A stretch of DNA of 26,630 bases, from IMG/VR virus record IMGVR_UViG_3300042565_001635, positions 1 through 26,630 of that record; one strand, written 5' to 3'. Of this stretch, positions 3,336 to 26,630 are shown in pieces. Position 1 is the stretch's first letter. Each line of letters begins with the position of its first letter. This DNA is from a virus. The position numbers were made by a program, and so were the translations under genes. The notes beneath the pieces were generated by a model. That model saw nothing but the letters and a program-made list of their open reading frames with translations. It was not told the DNA's origin and made no database searches.

Positions 3336-3620
3336 ATGCAAAAATTTGAACCACAGGGAAGGAAAATGTTAGTCCTACCTATATCTGAATCAGAGAACTA
3401 CAAGACGGAAACAGGACTTGAATTAGTACAAGACCATATAGCAAGGGGAATGGTTTTAGAGGTAAGTAAGGAGTATGAAGGAGTATATGAAAAAGGAGAT
3501 GTTGTAGCCTTTTCTAAAGGCGCAGGAGTTTCTCAAACGTACAATTCGCAGCAATGCCTATGGATAGATGCTAAAGCAGCACCAGATGGAGATGTTTGGT
3601 TTATAGAAAAACAATCGTAA
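3336..3620 (+). CDS. GroES/cpn10-like co-chaperonin
   Basis: The 94-residue size and motif order match the cpn10 fold: GRKMLVLPI (8-16) as the first strand, then a mobile-loop-like stretch YKTETGLELV (22-31), then RGMVLEVS (38-45) and YEKGDVVAFSKGAG (51-64), the counterpart of GroES V-G-D-x-V-x-F-x-x-Y-A-G. The hydrophobic LEL in the loop corresponds to the IVL tripeptide with which GroES docks on GroEL. A phage co-chaperonin, as T4 gp31 does for the capsid protein, would let the host GroEL fold a difficult phage protein. This is a family-based inference. It is the first gene after the parS-like site, and its stop overlaps the next start (TAATG). Confidence 0.65.
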   Translation: MQKFEPQGRKMLVLPISESENYKTETGLELVQDHIARGMVLEVSKEYEGVYEKGDVVAFSKGAGVSQTYNSQQCLWIDAKAAPDGDVWFIEKQS

Positions 3621-4348
3621 TGGACACATTGAAAATACTATTTAAGTTCCCTTGCAGGGGTAGGAAAGATATGTTTTTTGAAAGTTTGGAATCAATCCAC
3701 AACTTTATTGCCGACAAGGAAAATTATCACGTATCTCTTACGTTAGATACTGATGATGAGGTACTTAACAAGCCTGATGTAGTAGAAAGGATAAATGAGT
3801 TCCCTAATACGTCTATTGAGTGGGGGCTTTCGGAATCAAAAATACACGCTATTAATAGGTCTATGCCCACTAATTACGATTGGGATATTATTATTTGTTG
3901 GTCGCAGGATATGTTTGCTAAAATGTATGGGTTTGACCAAATAATCAGAGAAGGAATATTTAACGTATGGGGCAATACAGGACTTGATGGACTGGCGCAT
4001 TTCCCTGAACCAGATAGCAAGCAGTATCTAAACGTACTTTATATTGCTACAAGAAAGTATTATGAAAGGTTTGGGTACATATATCATCCAAGTTACAAAA
4101 GCCTTTGGTGTGATAATGAAAGCATGGAAGTGGCTAAGAAATTAGGAAAGTATAATTATTTTGATACAATGGGGTTATATGAGCATAGAAACCCTGCTTA
4201 TCACCAATACAATATACCAAGAGATGAATTGTTTAATTTACAGCAGTCTTTTTGGGCAGTTGACGAAGCGAATTTTAAAGAAAGACAATCTAATAACTTT
4301 TTCATCAGTAAATTAAAAGAAAATGAATGTATCGTTTCAGGGTCATAA
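3620..4348 (+). CDS. GT-A-type glycosyltransferase-like protein 1
   Basis: Looks like a family 2-type glycosyltransferase that would use a nucleotide-sugar donor. A first beta-strand LKILFKFPCRGR leads into an amphipathic helix, and LTLDTDDEV (41-49) supplies an acidic DxD-type metal-binding site. Then comes WDIIICWSQDMF, which can be the second acidic loop. The remainder, with LWCDNESMEVAKKLG and HRNPAYHQYN, is typical of acceptor-side sequence. The start at 3620 (TAATG overlap with the GroES-like gene) is preferred over an in-frame start at 3596 that would lie inside the previous gene. Donor and acceptor cannot be told. It is the first of five such proteins in this cassette. The 3' end overlaps the next ORF by 26 bases. 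Confidence 0.65.
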   Translation: MDTLKILFKFPCRGRKDMFFESLESIHNFIADKENYHVSLTLDTDDEVLNKPDVVERINEFPNTSIEWGLSESKIHAINRSMPTNYDWDIIICWSQDMFAKMYGFDQIIREGIFNVWGNTGLDGLAHFPEPDSKQYLNVLYIATRKYYERFGYIYHPSYKSLWCDNESMEVAKKLGKYNYFDTMGLYEHRNPAYHQYNIPRDELFNLQQSFWAVDEANFKERQSNNFFISKLKENECIVSGS

Positions 4349-4553
4349 CCCTGCACAATCAGAAGCGGAAAATCAAGCAAGGAAATTTGGCAAGCAAATG
4401 TGGGTAGTAAAGGACAATTCAGGAGGCATACACTACCGAGTTGTTGATAGTATTGGCGACATTTTGCCGGAAAATAAGATACTTGACCACTACAACGAAA
4501 AGGGAGAAAGAGTTGATGTATGGGTAAGTGAAAAGGTTAAGGTAACGCAGTAA
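4323..4553 (+). CDS. Small hypothetical protein
   Basis: Unrecognised 76-residue protein. It begins with a polar helix (NPAQSEAENQARKFGKQM), continues with a beta-rich part (WVVKDNSGGIHYRVVDS) and ends with DVWVSEKVKVTQ. The start overlaps the upstream glycosyltransferase-like gene by 26 bases, so a later start is possible, but no other ATG lies near. It sits between two glycosyltransferase-like genes. Confidence 0.5.
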   Translation: MNVSFQGHNPAQSEAENQARKFGKQMWVVKDNSGGIHYRVVDSIGDILPENKILDHYNEKGERVDVWVSEKVKVTQ

Positions 4554-4562
4554 AAAAATGAT

Positions 4563-5351
4563 ATGCTCCACTATGAAAAGAAAGTAGATGCCAACAGGTT
4601 TGCTGCAAGGAGTTCAAAAAAAGGAAGCGAATCGAGGTATATAATTAAGTGTGGCAAAGGTTATTTTGTAAGTAGTTCTGATTTTTGTGATGATTGGGAG
4701 AAAGTGGTATCAAGGTATTTCAAAGGAAAAAAAGTTGACATTATGAAGCCAAGTCCTTTACTAACAATAATGATACCTACTACCGTTGATAGGAGGGAAC
4801 TATTTAACGCTTTAATGGTAGAACTTAACAGGCAGGTTCGTGCTTTTTGTGAGGATTGGGAAGTGGAGATAATATCAAATGAGGATAACAAAGAAATTTC
4901 AGTAGGTAAGAAAAGGCAGATACTTTTAGAACAAGCAAAGGGATTATTTGTTGTTGGATTTGATAGTGATGATTTTCCTGCACCTGATTACATAAGTGAA
5001 ATAGTAGGGGCGTTAAGGGCTTGCAATGATGATATAGACCATATTGGGTTTCTTGAAAACTGCAACATTGATGGAGCAATAAGTACCTCAATATTCAGCA
5101 TTAAGTATCACAAGTGGGCTGAAAATGCAGCAGGGTATGATCACATAAGGTGCGCTAATCCAAAGTCCGTAATAAGGAGAGAAAAGGCATTACAAGTAGG
5201 GTTTGAGGATAGCAGATTCGGAGAAGATAGATTATTTAGCGAAGCAGTAACCCCTCTACTCAAAGGTGAAATATTTATTGATAAGCCATTGTATAATTAC
5301 ATTCACAAAAGTTCACCTTACATTGAAAGATACGGTTACGATAAAGATTAA
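4563..5351 (+). CDS. GT2-family glycosyltransferase-like protein 2
   Basis: This is the clearest glycosyltransferase of the group. SPLLTIMIPTTVDRRELF (64-81) is the classical first strand and helix of GT2 proteins. GKKRQILLEQAKGLFVVGFD (115-134) leads to the DSDD metal-binding motif (134-137). SVIRREKALQVGFEDSRFGED (a stretch ending about residue 222) fits the conserved G-E-D region that positions the acceptor. The first 60 residues (before M61) are not part of the GT fold and contain basic and cysteine-containing sequence. They may be an extra domain, or the true start may be M61 at base 4743. The substrate is unknown: virion protein, glycan, host surface or DNA are all possible. Confidence 0.75.
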   Translation: MLHYEKKVDANRFAARSSKKGSESRYIIKCGKGYFVSSSDFCDDWEKVVSRYFKGKKVDIMKPSPLLTIMIPTTVDRRELFNALMVELNRQVRAFCEDWEVEIISNEDNKEISVGKKRQILLEQAKGLFVVGFDSDDFPAPDYISEIVGALRACNDDIDHIGFLENCNIDGAISTSIFSIKYHKWAENAAGYDHIRCANPKSVIRREKALQVGFEDSRFGEDRLFSEAVTPLLKGEIFIDKPLYNYIHKSSPYIERYGYDKD

Positions 5352-5793: not shown

Positions 5794-5996
5794 AATTTAG
5801 CCACCCGATTCCCGTAGTAACCGAACAGGGTGAAGAAGGTTATGCTATTTATGTAGAGAGTGGAGGAAGTTTTGAGAACGACTTATGGTGCGTAGCTTTA
5901 TGTGATGGAGGAATTATTAGGCATTATAACACATCTCAACTAAGGATTCACCAAAATTTGACACTTCAAATCAATAAAAAAAATGGAGAACATTGA
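5778..5996 (+). CDS. Small beta-rich hypothetical phage protein
   Basis: This 72-residue protein has alternating strands: PIPVVTEQGEEGYAIYV, then NDLWCVALCDGGIIRHYNT, then a C-terminal LRIHQNLTLQI. The pattern suggests a small beta-barrel. Similar short proteins are common in Bacteroidetes phages, where their function is not known. The ATG at 5778 lies inside the previous ORF. A second in-frame ATG at 5787 (MLEFSHPIP) may be the real start. It overlaps the HNH gene by 14 bases. Confidence 0.55.
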   Translation: MPAMLEFSHPIPVVTEQGEEGYAIYVESGGSFENDLWCVALCDGGIIRHYNTSQLRIHQNLTLQINKKNGEH

Positions 5997-6636
5997 TAAA
6001 GCAGTTATAAAAGGAGATTTAGTTACGGATGGCATGAGAAGACTTTGGCATCAGCTAAGGAGCAATCTTGTAGTAAAAAGCATTCCAGGCGAATTATGGA
6101 AAGACGTAGTCGGGTATGAGGATAAATACGAAGTTTCTACTTTTATGAGAGTTCGTTCAAAGGAAAGAATTTGTAAAGCCAACAGGGGCGGTAAAATGAC
6201 AGTTAAAAGCCGTATTTTAAGTCAGCATATAAATGGTTGTGGATATTGGGAAGTTAGGTTTTACGAAAATAATAAAAGGATTGGCAAAAGAGTTCATAGG
6301 CTATTTACAGATGCTTTCTATCAAAATCCTGATAACAAAACTGTTATTAATCATAAAAATTTAATTAAAACAGATAATATTCCATGTAATATAGAATTAA
6401 ATACACCATCGGAAAATATAAAACACGCTTGGATTAATGGGGCTATTTTAAAAGGGGAATCGGTTAAGCACTCTAAATTAAAGGCTTTACAAGTGTTGGA
6501 AATATACAATTCTAAATGTAGGTTTATTGAAATACAAAAAAAGTATGGGATTACGCATAGGATGGTAGTTAAAATAAAAAATGGTATAAGTTGGAAATCA
6601 ATAACAAATCATCATAATAATGGACTTGACAAATAA
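5983..6636 (+). CDS. HNH homing-type endonuclease with NUMOD4 domain
   Basis: Likely a free-standing homing endonuclease that nicks or cuts DNA and spreads with its own gene. The NUMOD4 motif is visible as ELWKDVVGYEDKYEVS with RVRS (37-59). The HNH core runs from VHRLFTDAF (104-112) to INHKNLIKTDN (122-132), with catalytic-type H105 and H124, and ends in TPSENIKHAW (141-150). A C-terminal helix-turn-helix follows (HSKLKALQVLEIY to VKIKNGISWKSI, about 163-207), typical of the DNA-contacting repeat in this family. The first 34 residues do not belong to the usual enzyme and may come from a neighbouring or disrupted gene. There is no sign of intron boundaries. It separates two glycosyltransferase-like genes and overlaps both neighbours. 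Confidence 0.82.
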   Translation: MENIDKAVIKGDLVTDGMRRLWHQLRSNLVVKSIPGELWKDVVGYEDKYEVSTFMRVRSKERICKANRGGKMTVKSRILSQHINGCGYWEVRFYENNKRIGKRVHRLFTDAFYQNPDNKTVINHKNLIKTDNIPCNIELNTPSENIKHAWINGAILKGESVKHSKLKALQVLEIYNSKCRFIEIQKKYGITHRMVVKIKNGISWKSITNHHNNGLDK

Positions 6637-11870: not shown

Positions 11871-12196
11871 GTGATTTTATAACCTTTAGAGAACTTGATG
11901 CAGACGGTCAATTTGCTTATTACATATTACAAAAGGACTTTCCTCATTATGTAGGGGTTATATATCCATTTCCTAAAAAGAAAGTAGTAGAACCATCGCC
12001 AATAGCAGGGTATAATCTTTGGGTTTCTTTTAATGGAACTTTAAGGGGAAACGCTATACCGTCATACAACCATTTTTTAGAAGAAATTGTATTTATTTTA
12101 GACAGAATGGCTAATTGGTATCTCCAACAACGAATAATCCCTGATTATAAACGATATAAAAAATTTAAAATAAATGATACAATCTCCAGCAAATAA
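11867..12196 (+). CDS. Hypothetical phage protein
   Basis: Unrecognised 109-residue protein. It begins FITFRELDADGQFAYYILQ, with a middle strand region (HYVGVIYPFP) and a C-terminal helix (YNHFLEEIVFILDRMANWYL). Short proteins with this opening occur in Bacteroidetes phages close to virion genes, without assigned function. It overlaps the upstream gene by four bases and the downstream cpn10-like gene by 23. Confidence 0.5.
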   Translation: MSDFITFRELDADGQFAYYILQKDFPHYVGVIYPFPKKKVVEPSPIAGYNLWVSFNGTLRGNAIPSYNHFLEEIVFILDRMANWYLQQRIIPDYKRYKKFKINDTISSK

Positions 12197-12821
12197 GGTA
12201 ATAGTTCTCCCTGCGGCAAGATACACTAAGAACATAACAGACTTAATGAAGCGTTCTGCAATACAAAATGGGGCTACCGTTGACCCTGCGGACTTGGTTA
12301 ATATTGTTGGGGAGGTAATATCAATTCCAAGATACATAAGCCCTACTGCCGACTATAAAGGGTTTTCAACTAAAGATATAAAGATTGGAGATGTTGCGAT
12401 ATTCTCGTATAAAGTAATCTACGATGTAATCATAAAGCAGGAAGGAGAAGAACCAATTTACAGAAATAGCCTACCCTACAATGGCAAAGAGTATTTTGCT
12501 TGTGATATAAGAAATCTATTTGGGGTTATCAGGGGTGAAGAAATAATCATGGTAAACGGATATGTGATGCTTGATGATTTTGAAGATGATAGGATAATTT
12601 TGCCAGCATCCCTAAAAAAACAAAAAAACGCTACACTTTCAAAAATACTATATATCGGGGCAAACAGAACACATTTAAGAAGGATTGAAGCCCAACAAGG
12701 GGATGACGTTTTCTTTAACGCTAAACGGGCGCAGAGGTATCAGATAAATGACAAAAAGTTCGTAATACTCCAACAAGAAAAGATTTTAGGCAGGGTTACA
12801 GAAGAAACAAAAGTTAAATAA
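12174..12821 (+). CDS. Tandem cpn10/GroES-like protein (two domains)
   Basis: Two cpn10-like domains appear in one chain. Domain 1 (about 5-125) has the opening SPANKVIVLPAAR, a long polar loop (20-45) in the place of the GroES mobile loop, NIVGEVISI as the third strand, and IKIGDVAIFSYKVIYD as the G-D-V-x-F barrel motif. Domain 2 (about 126-208) has DDRIILPASLKK, ATLSKILYIG and QQGDDVFFNAKRAQRY, ending KKFVILQQEKILGRV. Each half is about the size of GroES (95 residues), so the protein may be a fused pair that forms part of a co-chaperonin ring or binds capsid protein. This is inference. It is the last gene before the virion module, well placed to help fold its products. Confidence 0.58.
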   Translation: MIQSPANKVIVLPAARYTKNITDLMKRSAIQNGATVDPADLVNIVGEVISIPRYISPTADYKGFSTKDIKIGDVAIFSYKVIYDVIIKQEGEEPIYRNSLPYNGKEYFACDIRNLFGVIRGEEIIMVNGYVMLDDFEDDRIILPASLKKQKNATLSKILYIGANRTHLRRIEAQQGDDVFFNAKRAQRYQINDKKFVILQQEKILGRVTEETKVK

Positions 12822-12868: not shown

Positions 12869-13549
12869 ATGAACATTAAGGAGTGCGTAGATTTTATTAA
12901 TTTTTGGATAAGAAAAGACAGAGGTGCTTTTCTTACTATTGAAGAAAGCGTAGCCGCTATTGATAGCGGTCAACTTGCTTATTATTCAGACATAAAGCCC
13001 AAGTACGCTACATCGCAACTGATAAAAGATACATTAGCCCCATTTAAAAAACAATACAATTTCACTCCCGCAAATACTATTTCTGGCTACATAGTTATTC
13101 CATCAAACGTTGATTACCTTGATTTATTAGACGTAGAAATACAGTTTAACATAAGTAATAGGACAGTTTATGCGCCAGTTGAAATGACAAATGAAGATGA
13201 AAGGTCAAACAAACTTAACTCTCAAATAGACCCCCCCACAGTTACAAGTCCAGTAGGGGAAATGCAAATTCCAAGATACATTAAACTATACCCACAGACA
13301 GGATATACAGGCACGGTTACATTTTTTTCAAGACCTAAAAAACCTGTCTATGCCTATAATGTTATTTCTGGCAGAGTTATTCAATACGATGCAGCCAACT
13401 CGGTACAACTTGAATGGAGAGATACGGAACACATCCCGATACTATTAAAAGCACTTGTAAGCGTTGGAATTAACCTTAGTGATGCAGAAGTTTCGCAATT
13501 TGCACAATTAAAAACACAAGAAAACTATCAAGGAGTTAATCATCTATAA
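12869..13549 (+). CDS. Putative neck/head-tail connector-like virion protein
   Basis: First gene of the virion block. The 226-residue protein has a helical N-terminal part (CVDFINFWIRKDRGAFLTIEE, starting at residue 6) and a beta-rich middle: SGYIVIPSNVDYLDLLDVEI (72-91), then LNSQIDPPTV and RYIKLYPQTGYTG. The conserved GTVTFFSRPKKPVYAY (148-163) and VQLEWRD (179-185) precede a C-terminal helix (LLKALVSVGINLSDAEVSQF). Proteins of this pattern lie near neck and tail genes of Bacteroidetes podovirus-like phages. A connector or ring role is inferred from position. The assignment to the virion is firmer than the exact role. Confidence 0.5.
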   Translation: MNIKECVDFINFWIRKDRGAFLTIEESVAAIDSGQLAYYSDIKPKYATSQLIKDTLAPFKKQYNFTPANTISGYIVIPSNVDYLDLLDVEIQFNISNRTVYAPVEMTNEDERSNKLNSQIDPPTVTSPVGEMQIPRYIKLYPQTGYTGTVTFFSRPKKPVYAYNVISGRVIQYDAANSVQLEWRDTEHIPILLKALVSVGINLSDAEVSQFAQLKTQENYQGVNHL

Positions 13550-13872: not shown

Positions 13873-14565
13873 ATGGCAACAACTATATATAGATTAGCGG
13901 AAATGGCTTTCAAACTTATTGAAGGAGGAACTCCTGGTGCAGCATCGTCTATAACATTTAATGAGTTAAAAATAGCTTGTCAAAACGTTGTCAATGCTTC
14001 ATTAAAAACACAATACTTTTCCGTAAATGCAAAAATTGGAGAAACAATCCCCAATGGCACAGTTTTAGGATTTTATGAAGGCATTGATGTTGTTTCTTAT
14101 AATGGAAAGAGTAAAACGACATTGCCAATAAAGCCAATCATGCTTCCAAGAAACATAGGCATTTGGGCGATATATCCAAAGTTTACAACAAAGGGAAACT
14201 ACGAATTAGACAAAGAGTTTATTCCTATGCAAATGGGGCAAATAGGGTTAGTTCAATCGCAGCCATTACTAAATGGAATACTTGGGCAGATAGCGTATGA
14301 AAATTACGGATTGGAATTGATTTTTAATAAAGACTTGAAATCGCTATTCCCTGAAATTAAGCTGGCAATGAGATTGGCTATAATGGATATTTCTCTTTAT
14401 AGTGATTACGATATTTTGCCAATACTTCCTGAAATGGAACATGAAGTAGTAACAGAGGTAGTTAAATTGTATAGCGCAGAACCAACAGGAGATAAAGTAG
14501 TTGATGCAACAGAAAAGGGTCAAAAGGGTGTTCCTATTAACCAACAAACGCAAAGCACTAAATGA
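13873..14565 (+). CDS. Putative structural protein of the neck or tail
   Basis: The 230-residue protein begins ATTIYRLAEMAFKLIEGG, a helical segment, then NELKIACQNVVNASLKTQYF, and a long beta-rich region with repeated Gly and Pro (GETIPNGTVLGFYEGIDVVS). The middle LPIKPIMLPRNIGIWAIYPK and YELDKEFIPMQMGQIGLV look like a structural barrel. Its position between connector-like and tail genes, and the absence of enzymatic motifs, suggest a neck or tail component. The leader, taaaataaataATG in form, lacks a Shine-Dalgarno. It overlaps the next gene by four bases. Confidence 0.5.
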   Translation: MATTIYRLAEMAFKLIEGGTPGAASSITFNELKIACQNVVNASLKTQYFSVNAKIGETIPNGTVLGFYEGIDVVSYNGKSKTTLPIKPIMLPRNIGIWAIYPKFTTKGNYELDKEFIPMQMGQIGLVQSQPLLNGILGQIAYENYGLELIFNKDLKSLFPEIKLAMRLAIMDISLYSDYDILPILPEMEHEVVTEVVKLYSAEPTGDKVVDATEKGQKGVPINQQTQSTK

Positions 14566-15314
14566 CACTTACCAACTTAGACATAATCGTTAGGCGTGGA
14601 CTATTGGAGGCAGGACTTCCTATTCACTACTACTTTGAATACTTAGTACATAGTTCTACTTGTATTAGGGAACTTAGTTTTGATACTTTAAAGATTGTGA
14701 ATACAGTAAGACTTCCAATAAATGAATACGGGGCTATTGATGTACCAAATGACTACGTTGATGATGTAGCATTATGTATCTCAAATTCAGGCATAATGCA
14801 GCCCATACCGCATCAAAAATACATAGACCCAATAAGAGTTCATAACCCAACAACAGGGGTATTTACCCATCAACAAAGTGTATCAGATAATATTGAAAAT
14901 GATTACTTATGGGGTAGTGCAGGGTGGATGTGGTTTTGGAATGTAAATGACTTTGGAGAACCAACAGGAAGATTTTTTGGCGCAACAGGAGGTACATCTA
15001 TTGGGTATAAATTTATTAAGGAAAGAAGGCAAATACAAATGACAGGAGGCTTTACGTCAGGTAGTGTTGTATTGCAGTATATTTCAGACGGACAAAGCGT
15101 TGACAATGCAAGTCAAATTGATGTACAGGCTTTTCAATGTATCAGAGCATGGCAAGAATGGAAAAAATCGCCAAATGCAAACAACGGAAATTCACCAGAG
15201 GCATATTTGTTTTATAATGAAAAAAAGAAATTGAGAGCAAGGTTATCGGGTATGTCATTGGTTGATGTTAAAAACGTATTGCGTAGTTCTTACACAGCTT
15301 CAATTAAAAACTAA
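14562..15314 (+). CDS. Putative head-tail connector or tail-associated protein
   Basis: The 250-residue protein opens with a helical stretch (LDIIVRRGLLEAGLPIHYYF), then YGAIDVPNDYVDDVALCI (57-74). FIKERRQIQMTGGFTSGSV (151-169) leads into VLQYISDG (170-177), a pattern seen in connector-like proteins of crAss-like and other Bacteroidetes phages, where the strand is followed by a helix such as VQAFQCIRAWQEWKKS (188-203). A Gly/Trp-rich insertion (WGSAGWMWFW) lies at about 117-126. The ends overlap both neighbours (ATGA and TAATG). Role by analogy only. Confidence 0.5.
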   Translation: MTLTNLDIIVRRGLLEAGLPIHYYFEYLVHSSTCIRELSFDTLKIVNTVRLPINEYGAIDVPNDYVDDVALCISNSGIMQPIPHQKYIDPIRVHNPTTGVFTHQQSVSDNIENDYLWGSAGWMWFWNVNDFGEPTGRFFGATGGTSIGYKFIKERRQIQMTGGFTSGSVVLQYISDGQSVDNASQIDVQAFQCIRAWQEWKKSPNANNGNSPEAYLFYNEKKKLRARLSGMSLVDVKNVLRSSYTASIKN

Positions 15315-15610: not shown

Positions 15611-15870
15611 TGACAGTAACAGATTTTATATTAAAGAATAAGCAGATAATTATTACCGAAACAGGCAATGATGCAGAATTTCAGCCTGATAATTCTGCTT
15701 TACTATTTGGAGAAGTAGTGGCAGTAAACGACTTGACTGAATTTTACACAGTTGGCGACAGGATTTATTTTGATGCAGGTGATTCAAGAAAGTTTTTATT
15801 AAATGATGTATTGTATTATTTAACAACAGAAGACAAGGTTTACTTAACATACCCATACGTAGCACCATGA
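15610..15870 (+). CDS. Small cpn10/GroES-like barrel protein
   Basis: The 86-residue protein follows the cpn10 pattern in shorter form: KNKQIIITETG (9-19) as the first strand, then a polar loop, LLFGEVVAVNDL (31-42) in place of G-x-V-V-A-V, and FYTVGDRIYFDAG (45-57) in place of V-G-D-x-V-x-F-x-x-Y-A-G. It ends DVLYYLTTEDKVYLTY (66-81), as GroES ends in a strand pair. The mobile loop is short (about 20-30). It may be a chaperone-related protein or a structural barrel of the same fold. Its stop overlaps the start of the 1029-residue tail gene. Confidence 0.5.
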   Translation: MTVTDFILKNKQIIITETGNDAEFQPDNSALLFGEVVAVNDLTEFYTVGDRIYFDAGDSRKFLLNDVLYYLTTEDKVYLTYPYVAP

Positions 15871-18800
15871 GGCAAATGGAAAAAAAGGTTTTTGCGGATA
15901 TTCAATCAGGCAGATTAAATTCTGATGATTCTCCATTTGTTGTGGGTACTAATGAGTGGGTAAACATGGAGAATTGCAGGACAGGAAGCACGGACTTAGG
16001 CGAAACAGGAGTAGTAGAAAGCATAGGTAGCAATGTTCTTATTTCAGTACCACAACCATCTGTAAATTTCATCACAATAGGTTCGGTAGAAGATATAGAA
16101 AATTCAAGGATTTGCTACTTTAAATTTAACACCACAGGACTTGGGCATAAGATAGTTTGTTTCTATACTGATACTAACACAGAGTACGATGTTTTACTTT
16201 CATCACAAGTAACAGGTGGGTTGAATTTTAGCAAACAAACAGTAATACATAGCGCACAAATAGTAAACGGTCTTTTGTATTGGGTAGAGGGAACTGTTAA
16301 TCAGCCAAGAAAAATAAACATCGAAGCAGGAATAAAAGCCAATAATCCTTCATTTGTTACTACCGAAGTTGCGTACACATTCCCATTGAACTTTAGTGAG
16401 ATAACAATAATAAAACCCTGTGCAATATATCCTCCAACAATAGCTAAGGGATATGATTCTATTTATTATGCAAACCTAATAGAAAACACTTCTTTTCAGT
16501 TTGCGTATCAATATGTTTATTACGATGGAGAAAAATCAGTTGTAAGCGCATATAGTGTAGCATCAAGAATTAATGAAGATGGTTCTACACTTAACTATAT
16601 ATTAGTTTCTATGAACGCAACGGAAAGAATACCAACATCCGTAAAAATAGTTAATTTAATATTCAGAATAAACAATACAAACTTTGCCTTTATTGCAAAA
16701 TCATGGAATAAAGATAATCCTACATCAGCAATAGAAATAAATGAACACAATGCTGGACTATTCTTACTAAGGCATTATTTTTATAACAATAACAATTACG
16801 AAGCAATAGCAGAAGACGATACGTTAAGACCATTTGATAATGTTCCTATTTATTCGCAAGCGTTATCTGCTGCTAAAAATAGAATTTTCTTAGGCAACAA
16901 TACCGAAGGGTATAATACCCCACAGAAAACATCAATGGCTATATCTCAAACGTTATTTACACCTTCTACGCTACCTTTATATCAATCGTTTGCGGCAGGT
17001 CAATATCAAACAGGTATTGTATTTTATGATTTTGCAATGAGGAAATGTGGAGTAGTAACAAACGAATATCTTGTTAGTGTTGTTAATGAAAGAAGTTACG
17101 TTTACACCAACGCTGTTAGTTCAATAACTTGGACTTTAAATAATTTAACACCACTTACGGAAATACCTGATTGGGCTTACTATTATGCGCCAGTAAGGAC
17201 ATTAAATAATAAGACAAGAAACTACATAGAATCATTTTGCAACACATTAAAGTATGCAACAAAAACGGCAACAGGTGACTATGATTTTGTTGCAACCTCT
17301 TTTACAAACAACGCAGTTGGAATTGCAATAGATACATCTGCTTTAGTGCAAACAAAATTAGGGTATGTATTTACGCAAGGCGATATGTGCCGAATAGTTA
17401 CACAGGGTAGTGTTGTGTATAGCCTTCCTGTAATTGGGCAATACGGAAACTATATAATTCTTAAACCGGTAGATATTGGATCGGTAGTTGGGCTAAGAAT
17501 AATCTACAACATTTACACGCCTTACGGCAGTAATACGCAAGAGCCTTTTTATGAAGTAGGACAAATGTACAAGGTAAATAATCCTACAACAAGCGTAAGA
17601 AGCTACTCTACATTATCAGGAAGTTTTGCTGCTGATAGTTATATATTGGCAAGGCAGTTCAAGCCATTTCCTGTAATATCGTATTACGCAAGTGCAATGT
17701 CGCCCAATGATAACTTATACCAAAATTGGTTCAATGATGCAGGGAAAATAAACTTAATTACGCTTCTTGGTCAATCTGTAAAAGATAGATATGTTTCATG
17801 GAGCGATACATACATACCAAATACAAACGTAAATGGGCTTTCTACATTTAGAGCATTAAACCAAACAAATGTTCCTGATGATAGCGGAAGCATCACTAAG
17901 TTGCAGTTGACTTCTAAAATACAAAATGAAGGTTCTGTAATGCTTGCTATTTGTAAAGCTGAAACCAATTCACTTTATTTAGGCGAAGTTCAAATTACAG
18001 ATAGTACAGGCGCAACACAATTCTTTTCTTCTTCACAAAATGTTATCGGTACAATAAACGAATTGAAAGGGAACTACGGATGCATCAATCCTGAATCTGT
18101 ATGCCAATACAGAGGTAACGTTTATTTCTTTGATGCAACAAATGGTAGATGGATACAATATTCCGCAAATGGGCTTGATGATATTTCTTCGTACAAAATG
18201 ACAAGGTTTTGGAGGTATTGGGCAAAGAAATATTTAAGCCTTACTTATTCTCAAATAGAAGCATTAGGAGATAGGCCCTTTGTGTTTGCTGCGGTAGATA
18301 GCGCACACAACGAGCTACTTATATCAATCCCAAAACTATCAAATACGCCACCAAAGGGCTATCTTCCTGATTATCCTTCAACGGTATATCCATTTGATAT
18401 TTTAGATTATCGTGGTAAAACAATAGTGTATAAAATTGGAATAGGTACAGAAATTCCGCATTGGCAAGGCGCAATGACTTTTACAACGGAATATTTCTGC
18501 ACTATTCAAAATAGATTATTTTCATTCAGGAACGGACACTTGTACGAACACAATCAGACAACAAGTCAAAATAATTTTTATGGAGTTCAGTACACTTCTA
18601 AAATTATGGCTACGTCGAATATGTTTCCCCAAGTTCCAAAAGTGTACGATAATATACTTTCAGAATCAAACATTTCGCCTATTTTCGTATATTTATACAA
18701 TCAATATCCATATCAGCAAAGTTCTGATTTATTGGATAGCGATTTTTCGGATGTTGAAGGACTTTGGTATGCAAGTATTTTAAGGAATAAACTTGTACCA

Positions 18801-18956
18801 ACGTCTGATGGATTTAATACGGATGGATTATTAACAGGGGAAGTAATGAGGAACGTGAACATGATGTTTATGGTTGAATATTCCCCAACAACTAAACCAT
18901 TGCAATTAAGATTTATTCAAATATCCTTTGCCACAAGCAGGGGTCATATAGTTTAA
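15867..18956 (+). CDS. Large tail protein (hub/stabilisation type)
   Basis: The 1029-residue protein has no enzymatic motif. It begins KVFADIQSGRLNSDDSPFVV (7-26), then NEWVNMENCRTGSTD and GVVESIGSN, an opening found in large structural tail proteins of Bacteroidetes podovirus-like phages. The body is rich in short strands with Tyr, Asn, Ser and Gly (YQYVYYDGEKSVVSAYSVAS and later EYLVSVVNERSYVYTNAVSS), which fits repeated beta-blades or a barrel-rich tail hub like P22 gp10. That comparison is by layout, not by search. It is the largest complete gene here and the centre of the tail block. ATG 15867 is the first of two close starts; 15876 is possible. Confidence 0.62.
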   Translation: MRQMEKKVFADIQSGRLNSDDSPFVVGTNEWVNMENCRTGSTDLGETGVVESIGSNVLISVPQPSVNFITIGSVEDIENSRICYFKFNTTGLGHKIVCFYTDTNTEYDVLLSSQVTGGLNFSKQTVIHSAQIVNGLLYWVEGTVNQPRKINIEAGIKANNPSFVTTEVAYTFPLNFSEITIIKPCAIYPPTIAKGYDSIYYANLIENTSFQFAYQYVYYDGEKSVVSAYSVASRINEDGSTLNYILVSMNATERIPTSVKIVNLIFRINNTNFAFIAKSWNKDNPTSAIEINEHNAGLFLLRHYFYNNNNYEAIAEDDTLRPFDNVPIYSQALSAAKNRIFLGNNTEGYNTPQKTSMAISQTLFTPSTLPLYQSFAAGQYQTGIVFYDFAMRKCGVVTNEYLVSVVNERSYVYTNAVSSITWTLNNLTPLTEIPDWAYYYAPVRTLNNKTRNYIESFCNTLKYATKTATGDYDFVATSFTNNAVGIAIDTSALVQTKLGYVFTQGDMCRIVTQGSVVYSLPVIGQYGNYIILKPVDIGSVVGLRIIYNIYTPYGSNTQEPFYEVGQMYKVNNPTTSVRSYSTLSGSFAADSYILARQFKPFPVISYYASAMSPNDNLYQNWFNDAGKINLITLLGQSVKDRYVSWSDTYIPNTNVNGLSTFRALNQTNVPDDSGSITKLQLTSKIQNEGSVMLAICKAETNSLYLGEVQITDSTGATQFFSSSQNVIGTINELKGNYGCINPESVCQYRGNVYFFDATNGRWIQYSANGLDDISSYKMTRFWRYWAKKYLSLTYSQIEALGDRPFVFAAVDSAHNELLISIPKLSNTPPKGYLPDYPSTVYPFDILDYRGKTIVYKIGIGTEIPHWQGAMTFTTEYFCTIQNRLFSFRNGHLYEHNQTTSQNNFYGVQYTSKIMATSNMFPQVPKVYDNILSESNISPIFVYLYNQYPYQQSSDLLDSDFSDVEGLWYASILRNKLVPTSDGFNTDGLLTGEVMRNVNMMFMVEYSPTTKPLQLRFIQISFATSRGHIV

Positions 18957-18967
18957 AATAAAATAAA

Positions 18968-19714
18968 ATGCCAATACCATTATTAGGATTAGGGTTAGGG
19001 CTTGCAGGAGCATTAGGGAAGATGGCAGGCAGGAGCAAAGCCAATAAGAAAATGAACCGTCTTTTAGGCGAAGACCCTGTATATTCTGAAAACCCAATAG
19101 CAAGACAAAGGATGGGGCTTGCTCAAACTATGCTAAATGCCCGTATGCCAGGAGCACAAGCCGTAGAAAACAACATCTATGGAAATCAAGCCAACACCCT
19201 ATCTAACATACAAAGAGGGGCAACAGACAGCTCCCAAGCGTTAGCAATGGCATCAGGGGTGCAGGGTAGTACAAATGACGCATTTCAAAACTTAGGGATA
19301 ACAGAGGCGCAAGACTATCAACGTAGGTACGGTAACTTATCGGATGCACAAGAAGGAGTAATTAGGGAAGGTGATAAAGTGTTCCAAGATAAAACAAGAA
19401 GGTTTGGAAATAAGATGCAGGTTAATGGTGCGATAAATGAAAATAGGCAAAATAATTGGGGCGATATCTCTAATATGGGATTTGGGTTAGCGGACTTTGC
19501 AATGAACGGTGGTTTTAATAGTTTGCAAGGTGGTGGTTCTCCAAGTTTAGGTAAAATGGGTATGCCGCAAGTTGGGGGATATCCTAATCAATCGGGAACG
19601 GTTGCAGGGGCTTATAATCCTATGGCGATGCGAAATATGAGTTTTATGGGTATGCCACAACAAGGTAATTACAGAACACCAAGATACAATCCGTCAACAG
19701 GGCAAATGGAATAA
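18968..19714 (+). CDS. Putative internal/ejected virion protein
   Basis: The 248-residue protein starts with a hydrophobic glycine-zipper-like segment, PIPLLGLGLGLAGALGKMAG (2-21), then a basic patch. A long polar helical region has QAVENNIYGNQANTLSNI and AFQNLGITEAQDYQRRYG, rich in Gln, Asn and Ala. The C-terminal part is rich in Gly, Met and Asn (after about residue 165). Similar proteins in podovirus-like phages sit inside the head and leave with the DNA to form a channel. The hydrophobic start and neighbourhood suggest such a role, by inference. The leader is a run of AT (taaaataaaATG). Confidence 0.55.
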   Translation: MPIPLLGLGLGLAGALGKMAGRSKANKKMNRLLGEDPVYSENPIARQRMGLAQTMLNARMPGAQAVENNIYGNQANTLSNIQRGATDSSQALAMASGVQGSTNDAFQNLGITEAQDYQRRYGNLSDAQEGVIREGDKVFQDKTRRFGNKMQVNGAINENRQNNWGDISNMGFGLADFAMNGGFNSLQGGGSPSLGKMGMPQVGGYPNQSGTVAGAYNPMAMRNMSFMGMPQQGNYRTPRYNPSTGQME

Positions 19715-19726: not shown

Positions 19727-21277
19727 ATGGCACTTGATTTACAAGGGTGGGTAACACCCGAACAAGATTTTAAAGGACTTTACAACTTGTCAGAAAATTT
19801 CCGTAGGCAAGGTGCTGAAAAAAAACGTGAAGACCAGATGGGCGCAGCTAAACAGGCAGGGCTATCTACCTATCTGCAAGGGTTCTTAGACCCAAAGGAA
19901 TATCTTACTGGAACAGTTTACGACCCACACATCACTAAAAGGATTTCAGAAATAATGATGAAGGGGATGGATTTGGCAAAGATGAAAGGGATGGATAACG
20001 CAACATTGTATGCGGCACTTTCTCCCGATGTAAATAAACTAACAAAAGAATCTTTAAATATCAGGGAAGTTGAAAGAAGGAGAAAAGAAGCAGAAGGAAT
20101 ACTGAAAGGACAGAAAGGAATTGACTTAGCAAAGGTGAATGACAGGGTACGCAGAAGGGCTTATTACAATGAAGATGGTTCTCTAAAAGACGACTTATCA
20201 TCAATAGACCCTACGATTGATTATGCTGATATGGTTCTTAGAAACGATGATGTGTACACTCCTGATGCATTGGATGAAATAATCGCTAAGGCAGGAAAGA
20301 ACTCACGAACACTTGACACAACAGTAACAGATGCAGACAAGCGTAGCAGAAGAACAAAGTTGCAGGTATCTTCACCTGAATTTATGCAGCCTGTAATCGA
20401 AAACGGAACATTCCAAAATAGGTTTGAACCAAGATACGAATTTGCAACAGATAACGGTCAACCAATAGAAGAAGTTGTGATTGATGAAACAACAGGGTTG
20501 CCAAAGAAAGGTACTAACGGTCAACCTATAACACAGAAAGCAAAGATGCTTATGAAGGATGATTGGGATATGCTGTTAGACAACAAGGCTGCCGCTATGT
20601 ATTTAAGACAAGAAATAAGAAAATACGCAAAAGAAATTGGTGTTGACCCGAACTCTACACAGGCAATAAATTTCGGAAAAACTTTAGGATGGGATATGCT
20701 AAACAGGTCATCAAAAGGTAGTTCAACCTTTAGTGAAGTAGTAGAAAAGAAAGATGCTCCTATTGTTATAAATGATAATAGAGGTTCAGGTGGTAAAGGA
20801 GGTTCAGATGCAATTATAAGGGATGTGTACAATGAAATTGATAGTAAGTTAAAAAAGGGTGCAGGGATGTTCCGTCAAGGAGAAACAACTCCCGCAGGTG
20901 ATACATACCGCCTACCTGTAAACGAACTAAGTAATGCAGCACAAGGAGTAATTATAAAACAACTATCGGAAATTACGGGTGGTGATATTGAAAAACAGTC
21001 TAAATTTTACATAAAGTTAGACCCCGAAGACGGAATGATAAAAGCATACAAGGCAAGTGATTTAAAAAGTACAGGTAAAGATGGCAAACCTATTGGAACT
21101 ATTGACTTTACAGGAACTAATTTAAGATCAGGGCAACCGAATACAAAAAGCAAAGTGGCAACGGTAGAGAAGGGGAAAGGTTTTTTTGATAAACTAAAAG
21201 GTTATATTAACAACTCTAAGCCACAAAAAGAAATGACATTAGCAGAAAGAATGAAGGCAGCAGCCAATAAAAGATAA
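19727..21277 (+). CDS. Putative virion protein (internal or tail-associated)
   Basis: The 516-residue charged protein has a helical N-terminal half: LYNLSENFRRQGAEKKREDQ, LTKESLNIREVERRRKEAEG. A more polar C-terminal half has Gly-rich linkers (NDNRGSGGKGGSD at about 349-361) and the basic tail KEMTLAERMKAAANKR. No enzyme motif is seen. It lies between the putative internal protein and the giant polyvalent gene and is likely packaged with them. Similar long helical proteins in Bacteroidetes phages are annotated only as structural. No Shine-Dalgarno precedes its ATG. Confidence 0.5.
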   Translation: MALDLQGWVTPEQDFKGLYNLSENFRRQGAEKKREDQMGAAKQAGLSTYLQGFLDPKEYLTGTVYDPHITKRISEIMMKGMDLAKMKGMDNATLYAALSPDVNKLTKESLNIREVERRRKEAEGILKGQKGIDLAKVNDRVRRRAYYNEDGSLKDDLSSIDPTIDYADMVLRNDDVYTPDALDEIIAKAGKNSRTLDTTVTDADKRSRRTKLQVSSPEFMQPVIENGTFQNRFEPRYEFATDNGQPIEEVVIDETTGLPKKGTNGQPITQKAKMLMKDDWDMLLDNKAAAMYLRQEIRKYAKEIGVDPNSTQAINFGKTLGWDMLNRSSKGSSTFSEVVEKKDAPIVINDNRGSGGKGGSDAIIRDVYNEIDSKLKKGAGMFRQGETTPAGDTYRLPVNELSNAAQGVIIKQLSEITGGDIEKQSKFYIKLDPEDGMIKAYKASDLKSTGKDGKPIGTIDFTGTNLRSGQPNTKSKVATVEKGKGFFDKLKGYINNSKPQKEMTLAERMKAAANKR

Positions 21278-21282: not shown

Positions 21283-24200
21283 ATGGACGAGAAACAACTT
21301 CAATTTTTATTTGATAATTACGGCAAATCAAAAGGGTTTGTTGACTTCAATGAATTTAAGTCTTTAATGCAAAACGAAGGAAGCAGAAAAGTATTTTTTG
21401 ATGATAGCAATAAAGATTTAGGATTTAAAGACTACAATGATTTTGAAGCTACCATAGGAGTAAAAAAAAACGGTGGCGGCAACGATGCTCCTCCACCTAC
21501 GCCTTTGGGTATTGCATCACCTTCCGTTCCCCAATCACAATCAAAAAGTTGGGAAAGTAGTCCACTAAACCCTGCATCTGGAAACTTTACACAAAAGCCA
21601 GAAGATAAAAAAGTAGATACATCAGGAAGAATCATTTTTGATCTAAATGATAAAGGGCAAATTGTAATGCCTACTAAAAAAGCAGACAACATAGAAGCCC
21701 ATAAAGAAGCCGTAAAAAACAATCCTGATAACAGGGGTGGTTATATTGGGAATAAACTGTTAAGAGGTATTGGTGAGCTTATAACAGGCGCATCCGACAA
21801 TGTGATGAATCTTATGACTTCCGTACTTCCAGAATCAGTTATTGGTGGCACAAAAGAGGAGGCTATGAAGCAATGGAGAGAAGAAGTAAGCCCAATTAGT
21901 AGGGAGTTTTTTGAAAAGAACTTGGGAGATAAAACGGTAACAGAAAAACAAAAAGATAAATACGATAACGAATTAATTACATCATCTATTGGCGGTATTG
22001 CACAATCTCTACCCGCTATGCTATCTCCAAAAGGGGCAAAAGCTATTGCTTTAATTTCGCAAGCGGAAGACGCTGCTTTGCAAAGTATTAATAGTACAGA
22101 ACAAGGCAAGGCTCTTCCTGAAAGCACAAAGTCTGTATTTATTTCTGGGGTTGGTGTTGCGCAGGGTCTTATTGAAAAATTTGGACTTGATAAAATATTT
22201 GGCAAGCAATCATCTGCACTCTCACGTAAAATTGCAGGAAAGGTTTTTGCTGATTTATTAAAAACAGCAGATAGTCCTATAACAAAAGAAATGTTTGATG
22301 AGGCTTTAGAGGTATATACAAAGTCAGCAAAACAACAACTACTTAACGCAGTAAAAAAGTTAGGAACAGCAGGTGCGGTAGAGTTTGTTACAGGAACATT
22401 GCAAGAAGGCAGTACCATTTTTGCAGAAATATTATTAAATAAAGGAGTAGGCAAAGATATATTTGAACCGACATCATGGGGCAAGGCAATAGGCAGGTCA
22501 GCAAAAGCAGGATTACAAGAGGCTATTGGAGGTTTTGTATTAGGTGGGGTAACAGTTCCATTTTCTAAAGTAGATAATTACATTTCAGATAAAGTTTCGC
22601 AAGCAAAATCAAGCGAAGATATTGATGTGTTAAAAGTAGAACTTGAACAGGAAATGGATAGGTTAGGTGCTTTTGATGAAGATTCTAAAAATGAAGTAAG
22701 GAAATTAATAGATGATTACACAAGGGTAAATTCTAAAATTCCAGATTCCGTACCTAACAGAAAATTTGCAGCAGATAAAATAATTGAGAGAGAAAACATA
22801 GAACAGGAAATAGAAAGTAAAATTGCCGAAAAAGATTTAGTTGATGTTGCATTTCAGCCCGAAATTCAAACAGAAATAGATTTACTTTCGAAAAAAGTGG
22901 AAGATATAAATAACGAATTGGTTAATCCTAATACCGTAACAGAAGATGGAATACCTAACACCACAACACAAGAACCTGCACCAACAGTTGATAAGCCTAT
23001 CATTGAGGCTACTACAACAGCCAAAGAACAAGGAGGTGAAGCAGCAGTACAACAAAGTACTGAACCAACTGGACAAGGAACTACAAAAACTACCGATGCC
23101 GTTTTAGAAGAAGGTAAAGTAGAACAACTAAGGGCAGCAGAGCAAGCAGAGTATGATGCAATGCCTAATCCAAACGACAAAGGAGCAAGACAAGAAATTT
23201 ACGATAAGTACGATAAACTGATAACTCCTTTATTAGAAAAACAAAAATCAGAAACACCACCTGCATCAAAAGAGTACGTGGTTAAAAAAACAGACGACTA
23301 TGTAAAAGATAAAACAGATAATATAAGTTTGGCTAAAGAAATATTAAATGACTTAGGAGTTGATGCCACTTTTACTGGATTTTCAGACACTAATGGAGTA
23401 TCAGTTTATTTCGAGGATGCAAACGGTCAAAAAATTAGAGTATCAGACCACGATATAACTAACAAGGATAGGGTAAAAGATGAAATTAGTTTAAGGTTCG
23501 ATAACAAAAGGTACGGTGGTGGCGTATATTCAAAATTTGAACAAAATAAAAAAGCAGTAGAATCCCTACTATCTAATCAACAAGTAAATGAACCTACACC
23601 AACAGAAATTACTGCAAATAGCAAACATAGAGGTGTTATTAACGGGAAAGAAGCTACAATATCGGTTAGCAATATTATCACCGAAGGCAAATACAAGGGT
23701 AACGCAAATGTAAATGTAACGTACAATGACGGAAGTGGTGGGTTTGGAGGTAATATGACAGTTGCAGACATTCAAAGAGCAAAATCCCTACTATCTAAAG
23801 AACAATCACTTAAAACAGAAGTCAAGCCTATTGTACAAGAAAGTAAAGAAGTAGGTAAGGAAGATAAAAAAGAAAGCACTACTAATAACCCTGCATCATC
23901 AAGCAAAAAAGAAGAATCAGAAAAAGGAAAAGTAGATACTAAAAAAGAAGGTAAGTACGAAGCTAAAGCAAAGGAACTTGCAGATAAGGTTAGGTCGTTA
24001 AAAGTAAATCTTTCTAAACTAAGTGGTGGTGGTTTACAGTCAAATGTATTGGGTCTTCCTATATCAGTATGGGATGCTTCAATGGAGATAGTGGCTAAGA
24101 CTATTGAAGCAGGTGGGAATGTTGCAGACGCAATTAAAAGAGGTATTAACTACATCCAAAAAAATCATCGTGGACAATGGGATAAGAAAGGGTTTAATGA

Positions 24201-26630
24201 CCAAGTAATGAAAGAATTAGGGGTAAGAGGAATTACTATCAATGGTGAAGACGTAATGGTAAAAGATGATGTAAAATCAAATCGTGAATATGCGGAAACA
24301 GTCAACGGATGGTATTCAGATTTAGAACAATCAGTATTGGATATTAAAGGAGAAAAAGCAAGTGGAACATCATGGGTAAAGGCTTTAGGTAATTCAGATG
24401 AAGCAAAGTGGACAGGGCTTAATGATTGGTTAAATTCACAAACAGGAAGTGTATCTAAAAAAGACATACAACAGTATCTTAAAGATAATAGAATTGAGAT
24501 TGTGGAAGTGGTGAAGGGTTCTAAATATGTGCCTAATTATACAATAGAAAACGAACCACCTGCAAAGTTTGGTGCTACAAGAAATGATTTATTGGGTGCA
24601 TTAATGGCAGCAGAATCAATAGACAATCCACGATTTGAAAAATACCTTGAAAATAGATATGGGAACGGAAAAGAACTACTTGATTGGTTAAAAGAAAATA
24701 CAACAGAAAAAGGGAGTTACTTAAAAGAAGAAGATACAAAATTTGGAGACTACCAATTAGAAGGAGAAAAAGAAAACTACAAAGAGGTATTGGTTACGAT
24801 GCCTGATGGCAATAGAGTAAAAAAATTAGAAACTCAATTACAAGATGAATACGATAAAGCAAATAAGGCGGTTAATGAAGCATTAAAGCCGTTAGATGCT
24901 AAAGCAAAAGAAATTTACGGTGTAACATTTTACACCAGTTTAGACTATAATGAAAAACTTGAAGTTCAATTTGCCTTTTTTAATAAGGGCAACGAGTATA
25001 AGAATTATGAAAAAGCAGTAAAGGAAATGGTTGCTGCAAAAGAAAAGTTGCAGAATATTGATAAGTCAAAATTCAAATCCTCCCACTTTGACGAACCTAA
25101 CATTCTTGTTCATTTAAGAATGAATACAAGGGTAGATGAAGAAGGTAAGAAGACGCTTTTTCTCGAAGAAATTCAGTCAGATTTTGGACAAGCTGGTAAA
25201 AAACAAGGGTTTAAACTTACCGAAAAAGAAGCAGGAGAAGCGTGGAATATTGCCGATAAAAAGTACGCAGATTTTATGAAGCGTATGGAAAGCAAGTATG
25301 GAAAAGAGTGGGAAGATGAATTAGAAAAAAGTGAAGTTGATGAAGAAACTAAACTTTTAGATGCAAGAGAAAATACCAAAGGTGGAACTATACCGCAAGC
25401 CCCCTTCGTAACCGACACAAACGCATGGACTAAATTAGGCTTAAAAGTAGCCCTTAAAGAAGCAGTTAAACAAGGTGCTGATAAAATAGCTTGGACAACA
25501 GGTGAGCAACAGAATGATAGGTATGATTTGAGTAAGAGTGTTGATTATATTAGAAGGTTTGACGACAGAACAAATGACGACAGGTCTTATATTGATATTT
25601 CTACGCCTACATCGCTTATATCATTAGTTGTTGATAATCGCATTGAAAAAGGGAAGGTGCTTGAAAGTAGAAATTCAACAGAAGGGAATGCTTATGTAGG
25701 TAAAAATCTTGAAGATGTTATCGGAAAGGATATTGCCGAAAAAGTAATGAATTTAAGAGATGGGCAAGAATTATCAGGCGAAGGATTAAAAGTAGGCGGC
25801 AAAGGAATGAAAGGCTTCTACGGTTCACCAACAGAGGGAAGTTTAGGCATAGTAGGTAATGTAGCAAAAAGTTTGTTTAAGCAAGAACCGAAAACGGTGG
25901 AGATAGAGGTTGGGGATAGTGGATATACATTAACCTTAAAAGATAAAGACACAGGCAGAACCACGATAAATCAATTTGACAATAAACAAAAAGCAAGTGC
26001 ATGGCTTTCTAAAGAAGTAAATGCAGGTAGAAATTATGAAGTTGTTAGTGAAGAAAGTGGTAAACGAAATTCGACCCAACACTCCATAGACATAACACCC
26101 GAACTAAAAGCAGAGGTAGAGAGTGGTCTTCCATTATTTAAGGACATAAAAGGAAGGGGTAAAGAAATAGCGGACTTATTGCGTAAGGGAAAGATAAAGT
26201 TAGGAAGCAGAGGATTGCAGTCTAACATAGCAGGGCTTCCTATTGCAGTATATAACGGTGCAATAGAGGTTATAGCAAGGGGATTGGAAACAGGTGCTAC
26301 ATTAACACAAGCAATTAATCAAGCCTACAAAAAATTAAAACTAAAAGAAAGAAAAGGTTTTAATCAAGATGAATTTATTAAGCAACTTGAAGATGCCACA
26401 GGGGAAAAATTCATTGAAGAATCCGATGTTCCACCACCTAAAAAACCACCAGTAGAAACAGCCAATACAGAAGGAGAGGGAGAACTTTCTGAAAAGGGAA
26501 TCATGAACAGGCTAAACAAAGCAAAAAATGTTTCTGATGAATCAAAAAAAGGCTATCAGGAAGCAGGGCTTAAATATGTAGTAGCAAGTAGGGAGGAAGC
26601 GCAATCTGTTGCCAAGTCCATTATAGATGA
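21283..26630 (+). CDS. Giant polyvalent virion protein, 3' end outside window
   Basis: The open frame from ATG 21283 runs 1782 codons to the window edge without a stop. Residues 1-60 contain two short repeats around DFNEFKSLM and GFKDYNDFEATIG. A Pro/Ser linker follows. Helical, glycine-rich hydrophobic stretches lie at about 390-430 (GKAIGRSAKAGLQEAIGGFV). Long charged linkers follow. A conserved block at about 1270-1540 has the signature of phage large polyvalent proteins: EPNILVHLRMNTRVDEEG, FLEEIQSDF (1293-1301), AWTTGEQQNDRYDL (1403-1416) and GMKGFYG (1508-1514). DITPELKAEVESGLPLF (about 1603-1619) follows. One 43-residue unit occurs twice. Such proteins are thought to be carried in the virion and delivered to the host. 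The activities of this block are not established. Confidence 0.72.
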   Translation, partial: MDEKQLQFLFDNYGKSKGFVDFNEFKSLMQNEGSRKVFFDDSNKDLGFKDYNDFEATIGVKKNGGGNDAPPPTPLGIASPSVPQSQSKSWESSPLNPASGNFTQKPEDKKVDTSGRIIFDLNDKGQIVMPTKKADNIEAHKEAVKNNPDNRGGYIGNKLLRGIGELITGASDNVMNLMTSVLPESVIGGTKEEAMKQWREEVSPISREFFEKNLGDKTVTEKQKDKYDNELITSSIGGIAQSLPAMLSPKGAKAIALISQAEDAALQSINSTEQGKALPESTKSVFISGVGVAQGLIEKFGLDKIFGKQSSALSRKIAGKVFADLLKTADSPITKEMFDEALEVYTKSAKQQLLNAVKKLGTAGAVEFVTGTLQEGSTIFAEILLNKGVGKDIFEPTSWGKAIGRSAKAGLQEAIGGFVLGGVTVPFSKVDNYISDKVSQAKSSEDIDVLKVELEQEMDRLGAFDEDSKNEVRKLIDDYTRVNSKIPDSVPNRKFAADKIIERENIEQEIESKIAEKDLVDVAFQPEIQTEIDLLSKKVEDINNELVNPNTVTEDGIPNTTTQEPAPTVDKPIIEATTTAKEQGGEAAVQQSTEPTGQGTTKTTDAVLEEGKVEQLRAAEQAEYDAMPNPNDKGARQEIYDKYDKLITPLLEKQKSETPPASKEYVVKKTDDYVKDKTDNISLAKEILNDLGVDATFTGFSDTNGVSVYFEDANGQKIRVSDHDITNKDRVKDEISLRFDNKRYGGGVYSKFEQNKKAVESLLSNQQVNEPTPTEITANSKHRGVINGKEATISVSNIITEGKYKGNANVNVTYNDGSGGFGGNMTVADIQRAKSLLSKEQSLKTEVKPIVQESKEVGKEDKKESTTNNPASSSKKEESEKGKVDTKKEGKYEAKAKELADKVRSLKVNLSKLSGGGLQSNVLGLPISVWDASMEIVAKTIEAGGNVADAIKRGINYIQKNHRGQWDKKGFNDQVMKELGVRGITINGEDVMVKDDVKSNREYAETVNGWYSDLEQSVLDIKGEKASGTSWVKALGNSDEAKWTGLNDWLNSQTGSVSKKDIQQYLKDNRIEIVEVVKGSKYVPNYTIENEPPAKFGATRNDLLGALMAAESIDNPRFEKYLENRYGNGKELLDWLKENTTEKGSYLKEEDTKFGDYQLEGEKENYKEVLVTMPDGNRVKKLETQLQDEYDKANKAVNEALKPLDAKAKEIYGVTFYTSLDYNEKLEVQFAFFNKGNEYKNYEKAVKEMVAAKEKLQNIDKSKFKSSHFDEPNILVHLRMNTRVDEEGKKTLFLEEIQSDFGQAGKKQGFKLTEKEAGEAWNIADKKYADFMKRMESKYGKEWEDELEKSEVDEETKLLDARENTKGGTIPQAPFVTDTNAWTKLGLKVALKEAVKQGADKIAWTTGEQQNDRYDLSKSVDYIRRFDDRTNDDRSYIDISTPTSLISLVVDNRIEKGKVLESRNSTEGNAYVGKNLEDVIGKDIAEKVMNLRDGQELSGEGLKVGGKGMKGFYGSPTEGSLGIVGNVAKSLFKQEPKTVEIEVGDSGYTLTLKDKDTGRTTINQFDNKQKASAWLSKEVNAGRNYEVVSEESGKRNSTQHSIDITPELKAEVESGLPLFKDIKGRGKEIADLLRKGKIKLGSRGLQSNIAGLPIAVYNGAIEVIARGLETGATLTQAINQAYKKLKLKERKGFNQDEFIKQLEDATGEKFIEESDVPPPKKPPVETANTEGEGELSEKGIMNRLNKAKNVSDESKKGYQEAGLKYVVASREEAQSVAKSIID
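24031..24159 (+). repeat. Copy 1 of a duplicated unit in the giant protein
   Basis: Encodes residues 917-959 of the giant protein, starting GLQSNVLGLPISVWDASMEI. It matches copy 2 at 16 of the first 39 positions, with mostly conservative changes elsewhere. It follows a long acidic/basic linker (KKEGKYEAKAKEL). Confidence 0.6.
26212..26340 (+). repeat. Copy 2 of a duplicated unit in the giant protein
   Basis: Encodes residues 1644-1686, starting GLQSNIAGLPIAVYNGAIEV. The distance between copies is 2181 bases (727 codons). It comes just after the DITPEL motif and may start a second module of the protein, beyond the conserved polyvalent block. Confidence 0.6.

Follow-up and report, generated by a model that had tools for sequence, protein, structure and literature searches.

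The question raised by this locus is what a giant phage protein does with a block of short motifs that recurs in large proteins of phages from unrelated hosts. The window, that is, the whole stretch of DNA analysed here, comprises an entire virus record of 26,630 bases, which is probably a fragment, and it ends inside the giant gene. The first-pass annotation had reported a protein of more than 1780 residues, and the open reading frame read here gives 1782 residues and is still open at the contig end; the motifs that it had listed were all recovered, with HLRMN at residue 1277, EEIQSD at 1295, AWTTGEQQNDRYDL at 1403 and GMKGFY at 1508. The features of the giant gene are as follows:

21283..26628, + strand: giant open reading frame, ATG start, no stop up to the window end; 1782 residues, open at the contig end
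21298..21462, + strand: N-terminal pair of units of about 25 residues, LF.xN.GKxKGFxDFxEFxS.. / FF..xKDLGFKDYxDFEA (by eye)
23950..24237, + strand: first LQSN repeat, residues 890-985, a module of about 90 residues (sequence comparison)
24295..24522, + strand: linked helical module FYS..WTGL..VSK..EVV, residues about 1005-1080 (sequence comparison)
24733..26139, + strand: conserved domain with predicted GNAT-like fold, residues about 1151-1619 (homology, alignment, model, coevolution)
25150..25176, + strand: residues 1290-1298, strand equivalent to beta4 and containing EEIQ, with E1296 as putative catalytic Glu (model, coevolution, conservation)
25417..25503, + strand: residues 1379-1407, covering helix alpha3, strand beta5 (predicted to run parallel to beta4) and AWTTG (model, profile comparison, coevolution)
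25801..25878, + strand: alpha4-equivalent region GKGMKGFY..., residues 1507-1532; Y1513 is invariant and the candidate general acid (model, conservation)
26146..26418, + strand: second LQSN repeat, residues 1622-1712 (sequence comparison)

The range of residues 1270-1540 originally given for the block was right as far as it went, but the conserved unit is longer, extending from TKFxxYQLxGxxENYxE (about residue 1151) to DITPEL...PLF (about 1619). A search with 531 residues around the motifs returned 21 viral loci at 33-53% identity, and the relatives match over about 470 residues with E-values down to 1e-110, so that the motif block lies far beyond chance. Four further scans of 600 candidates each confirmed at least 548, 586, 598 and 589 relatives, respectively, in overlapping sets; the relatives come from hundreds of phage contigs and from contigs of many bacterial phyla, and one scan of bacterial genomes yielded 24 loci from many phyla. 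The spread over unrelated hosts was likewise borne out, as the domain is carried by Bacteroidota phages and, among annotated records, by Dolichospermum phage Dfl-JY45 (where a single protein has it twice), phages of Nostoc and Microcystis, Pelagibacter phage HTVC028P, a Manatee Spring phage and Pseudomonas plasmids; it also lies on contigs that binning places with Desulfobacterota, Acidobacteriota and Patescibacteria, among other groups. In an alignment of 86 diverse relatives the block forms one domain of about 360-520 residues with 16 invariant columns, and residues E24, H68, R79, E96, Q98, S99, P170, G203 and Y292 (numbered as in the compact relative L101) are about 100% conserved across 256-308 sequences. 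The giant proteins of loci L048 and L023 also hold two copies of the domain per chain.

Around this domain the chain is a mosaic. The linked helical module of about 80 residues (FYS..W..L..VSK..I..FL..N.IxVxEV) precedes the domain and was found in 95 open reading frames, and compact relatives of 660-810 residues have nothing besides the domain, its helical module and a short stretch at the N-terminus. In giant relatives the domain shares its chain with ART-PolyVal, LPD38, ddrB-ParB, InPase, LPD5, LPD3, RadC and other domains. The term polyvalent holds for the relatives (ART-PolyVal, ddrB-ParB, LPD and other domains). In the part of the window protein read here, open at the contig end, a Pfam search left only the conserved block and the repeats, with no second known enzyme domain. 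Two diverged copies of the repeat module of about 90 residues, LQSN[IV]xGLPI, stand one on each side of the conserved block; the module occurs in several relatives too, as one or two copies, and residues 140-440 are common to the window protein and one relative. The giant protein of locus L003 (near 3121) opens with a unit pair similar to that at the N-terminus of the window protein (pattern KGFxDFxEF / KGLPEDxxxF), and phmmer among the loci returned no match for the window pair. Such paired N-terminal units could serve as a packaging or virion-targeting signal.

The domain occurs in hundreds of phage contigs, yet it is described by no curated family that we searched. No model in Pfam, NCBIfam or PADLOC covers it, a sequence search of the PDB returned no relative, and the literature searched here yielded no paper that deals with EIQSD as a phage motif; the uncatalogued domain may be the same as an LPD that lies outside Pfam (for example LPD19 or LPD21). 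The only profile covering the block is PHROG 7348 ('endolysin', 2564 positions), which does so in 74 of 86 members. We rejected that name for the block, which has no feature pointing to a lysin; the name was most likely inherited from another domain of the giant protein. An ADP-ribosyltransferase identity was considered because ART-PolyVal often shares the chain with the block, and was rejected since ART-PolyVal is a separate domain.

Structure prediction, the check proposed at first pass, gave confident AlphaFold2 models for both the compact relative L101 (pLDDT 87.2, pTM 0.81) and the window domain (pLDDT 91.2, pTM 0.82). In a Foldseek comparison with the PDB, the top-ranked matches of the L101 model were Eis-like proteins, RimI, SSAT, FeeM, Naa50, AAC(2') and ICL2 (through its GNAT-like domain), and among the best 50 matches 45 were GNAT or GNAT-like (32 named acetyl- or acyltransferases and 13 ICL2 entries, whose C-terminal domain we take to be GNAT-like). 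These PDB matches had E-values of 0.05-0.6, none below 0.001, with poor superpositions, which counts against the GNAT reading. In a viral library the same model gave 23 matches at E<0.001 to large phage proteins that apparently belong to the same family, followed by several named N-acyltransferases (E 0.01-0.3). The model of the window domain carries long helical hairpin inserts and retrieved mostly coiled-coil hairpins first, with a few GNATs lower, which again counts against. By profile comparison the alpha3-beta5 part of the block aligns on alpha3-beta5 of ordinary GNATs (P 0.006-0.009), a weak match that is suggestive only when taken alone; as controls, two unrelated families gave P of at least 0.04, reversal of one side gave P of at least 0.13, and column-permuted queries scored lower.

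The topology of the sheet was then read from coevolution, using mean-field direct coupling analysis (DCA) of 308 sequences (Neff 284) with strand boundaries from the AlphaFold2 model. The resulting order is b1-b2-b3-b5-b7-b6, with b1/b2, b2/b3, b5/b7 and b6/b7 antiparallel and only b3/b5 parallel (10.0 versus 6.8). Only 0.08-1.1% of randomly chosen segment pairs reached the scores of the five adjacent pairs, and the remaining, non-adjacent pairs reached at most 5.4; the adjacent-pair signal collapsed in a column-shuffled alignment, the pair directions were the same in both halves of the alignment, and helices 175-192 and 286-306 were found to pack together. The GNAT sheet has the order beta3-beta4-beta5-beta7-beta6. 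In strand order and direction, the predicted sheet of the block has this topology, except that one of the classical seven strands is absent at the N-terminus and that inserts separate beta4 from alpha3 and beta5 from alpha4. There is good evidence, in computation, that the block is a common phage domain with a GNAT-like fold and more than a lone motif.

Catalysis by GNATs often relies on a beta4 Glu as the base (for example E173 of Gcn5) and an alpha4 Tyr as the acid. The corresponding residues of the block, E96 and Y292 of L101 (E1296 and Y1513 in the window), are both present in 300 of 301 sequences, at the usual GNAT catalytic positions. The Q/RxxGxG/A pyrophosphate loop expected after beta4 is not conserved, the pattern being present in only 54 of 298 sequences, and the motif conserved there instead is QxG[RK]xxG. 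Because this defining loop signature was looked for and is missing, we call the block GNAT-like and not a proven member. The block thus resembles the GNAT superfamily (Eis, RimI, SSAT) in its predicted sheet order, its parallel beta4/beta5 with alpha3 crossover, the beta4 Glu and the alpha4 Tyr, but differs from it in that the sheet is one strand shorter at its N-terminal side, large inserts follow beta4 and beta5, the canonical CoA-pyrophosphate loop is absent, and the sequence has no significant match to GNAT models of Pfam; the absent loop and this last result, too, count against the GNAT reading. In the Bacteroidota-phage clade the stretch of alpha4 after the invariant Tyr (25801-25878) reads GSPTEGSLGIVGNVAKSLFKQ, whereas elsewhere it is usually DxIxPxxxxKLxKK. 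This is an apparent clade-specific change adjoining the putative active site, and its presence in the clade of the window phage counts against a GNAT-acyltransferase reading.

How such a domain might reach the host is suggested by the genes upstream:

12869..13549, + strand: virion structural protein, relative of phi38:1 gp95 (sequence match)
14562..15314, + strand: virion structural protein, relative of phi38:1 gp96 and elemoF gp23 (sequence match)
15867..18956, + strand: muzzle protein of 1029 residues with crAss_MUZ_C domain, PF25729 (domain and sequence match)
18968..19714, + strand: protein of 248 residues in cargo C1 position, hydrophobic N-terminus (gene order)
19727..21277, + strand: protein of 516 residues in cargo C2 position (gene order)

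The muzzle protein is related to virion proteins of Cellulophaga phage phi38:1, the elemo phages and Gundel_1. The order of muzzle, a protein of about 220-260 residues, one of about 400-610 residues and the giant protein is found in five phages (the window, L003, L035, L036 and L104); L032 has the reverse of this usual order, with its muzzle gene downstream of the gene for the giant protein. In phiCrAss001 the muzzle gp44 is followed by the cargo proteins gp45, gp46 and gp47, which were all detected in virions by mass spectrometry and are proposed to leave ahead of the DNA (PMC10172136). The window has the same order of C1, C2 and giant protein after the muzzle as gp45-gp47 (PMC10172136); gp47 is annotated as RNA-polymerase related, and the likeness drawn here between it and the window giant protein is one of gene position. 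The positional counterpart in phi38:1, gp101, is annotated as a structural protein, and the giant proteins of phi38:1, elemoF and Gundel_1 occupy the same position with no detectable sequence in common with that of the window. In unrelated phages the gene for the domain adjoins genes for an internal virion protein, terminase, portal, scaffold, head or lysozyme. Given the cargo gene order and these neighbours, ejection of the window protein is likely, and by analogy it is probably packed in the particle and injected into the cell; the early proposal of an injected protein finds indirect support in the synteny with crAss-like podovirus cargo genes and in the packaging or internal-virion genes beside the domain elsewhere. 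Polyvalent proteins are phage-delivered and multidomain, are encoded with virion or transfer genes and include GNAT families (Iyer et al. 2017, PMC5512222), and the window protein is likewise encoded with virion genes. The block's relatives share with the polyvalent-protein GNATs the multidomain chain, often with an ART domain alongside, but those two families are RimI-like and recognisable (PMC5512222).

The reading that we prefer, with a confidence little above even, is that the block is a divergent, insertion-rich GNAT-fold domain which, with its helical partner, forms part of a giant cargo protein of a crAss-like podovirus and acts as an acyltransferase on a host target. The giant protein would be packed in the capsid, as synteny suggests, would exit through tail and muzzle ahead of the DNA, as proposed for phiCrAss001, and would refold in the cytoplasm. 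There the domain would acylate an amine of a host macromolecule, by transfer of acetyl or another acyl group, the candidate base being E1296 (beta4) and the candidate acid Y1513 (alpha4). Computation shows the conservation of the domain, its association with phage structural genes and its GNAT-type sheet topology; the use of acyl-CoA, catalysis itself, the target and injection are inferred. Since the domain resembles a heavily modified acetyltransferase, host molecules may receive a chemical tag from it within the first minutes after infection, with takeover or counter-defence as the possible outcome. A model for such a function is Rac of phiKMV-like phages, described as a GNAT that acts early in infection on the alpha subunit of host RNA polymerase, which it acetylates (PMC7824862), and set beside the block by this described function. 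Separate, ordinary GNAT-like matches occur in the same polypeptide as the block at residues 587-666 (L003), 1177-1253 (L026), 1033-1106 (L004) and 102-174 (L042) of the giant frames, and the block is therefore unlikely to be a simple duplicate of an ordinary GNAT function.

The missing loop also gives room to a possible, if doubtful, reading in which the fold is that of a GNAT but some other donor, such as aminoacyl-tRNA or an acyl carrier, takes the place of the usual acetyl-CoA, or in which the domain modifies nucleic acids in the manner of Mom. A new donor site would then arise from the absence of the CoA loop together with the three-strand insert and the wealth of invariant His, Arg, Gln and Trp; the DCA topology, QxG[RK]xxG in place of the canonical pyrophosphate loop, invariant polar residues that are unusually many for a GNAT, and FeeM among the structural matches are all consistent with it, but the Glu/Tyr pair stands at the usual places and there is no direct evidence of another donor. 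A broader version, in which a widespread uncatalogued superfamily of virion-delivered GNAT-fold enzymes has lost the classical CoA site in favour of another donor or target and owes its spread over many phyla to acting on something universal in bacteria, seems to us unlikely.

It is similarly improbable that the domain is a non-catalytic part of the ejection machinery, which packs, threads or anchors the ejected protein and whose conserved residues hold the fold. Such a role would suit the gene's neighbours in unrelated phages, which encode internal virion protein, portal, terminase or lysozyme, as it would the compact versions of 660-810 residues, one of which, from the head of the scanned set, has no known Pfam domain; yet the invariant E, H, R, Q and Y residues gather at strand ends in the fashion of an active site, the domain is one among effector domains (ART, InPase) in mosaic proteins, and one protein can hold two copies. 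The earlier suggestion of an enzyme is supported by the dense invariant polar residues and by the fold evidence, which points towards GNAT acyltransferases, whereas its companion, a protease-like unit that cuts the giant protein, is very improbable indeed. The general idea that large ejected proteins may need processing speaks for a protease, but Pfam, PDB and Foldseek searches returned no protease match by sequence or fold, the topology is GNAT-like, and the alignment has neither an invariant Cys nor a recognisable invariant Ser-His-Asp set of a known type.

If the acyltransferase reading is true, the giant 'dark' proteins found in crAss-like phages and in many others would gain a testable function, and an injected enzyme of this kind would be among the commonest early host-modifying enzymes of phages. 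E1296 and Y1513 are named residues to mutate, and the compact natural versions (360-390 residues) suit expression and assay.

Other genes of the window were observed alongside. The gene at 12174-12821 encodes a protein of 215 residues whose C-terminal part matches Cpn10/GroES (PF00166) and whose N-terminal part is different; in isolates of the window phage's group a GroES gene precedes the terminase. Two adjoining glycosyltransferase-like genes lie at 3596-5351, and the window also encodes a DNA methyltransferase (685-1212) and an HNH endonuclease (5983-6636).
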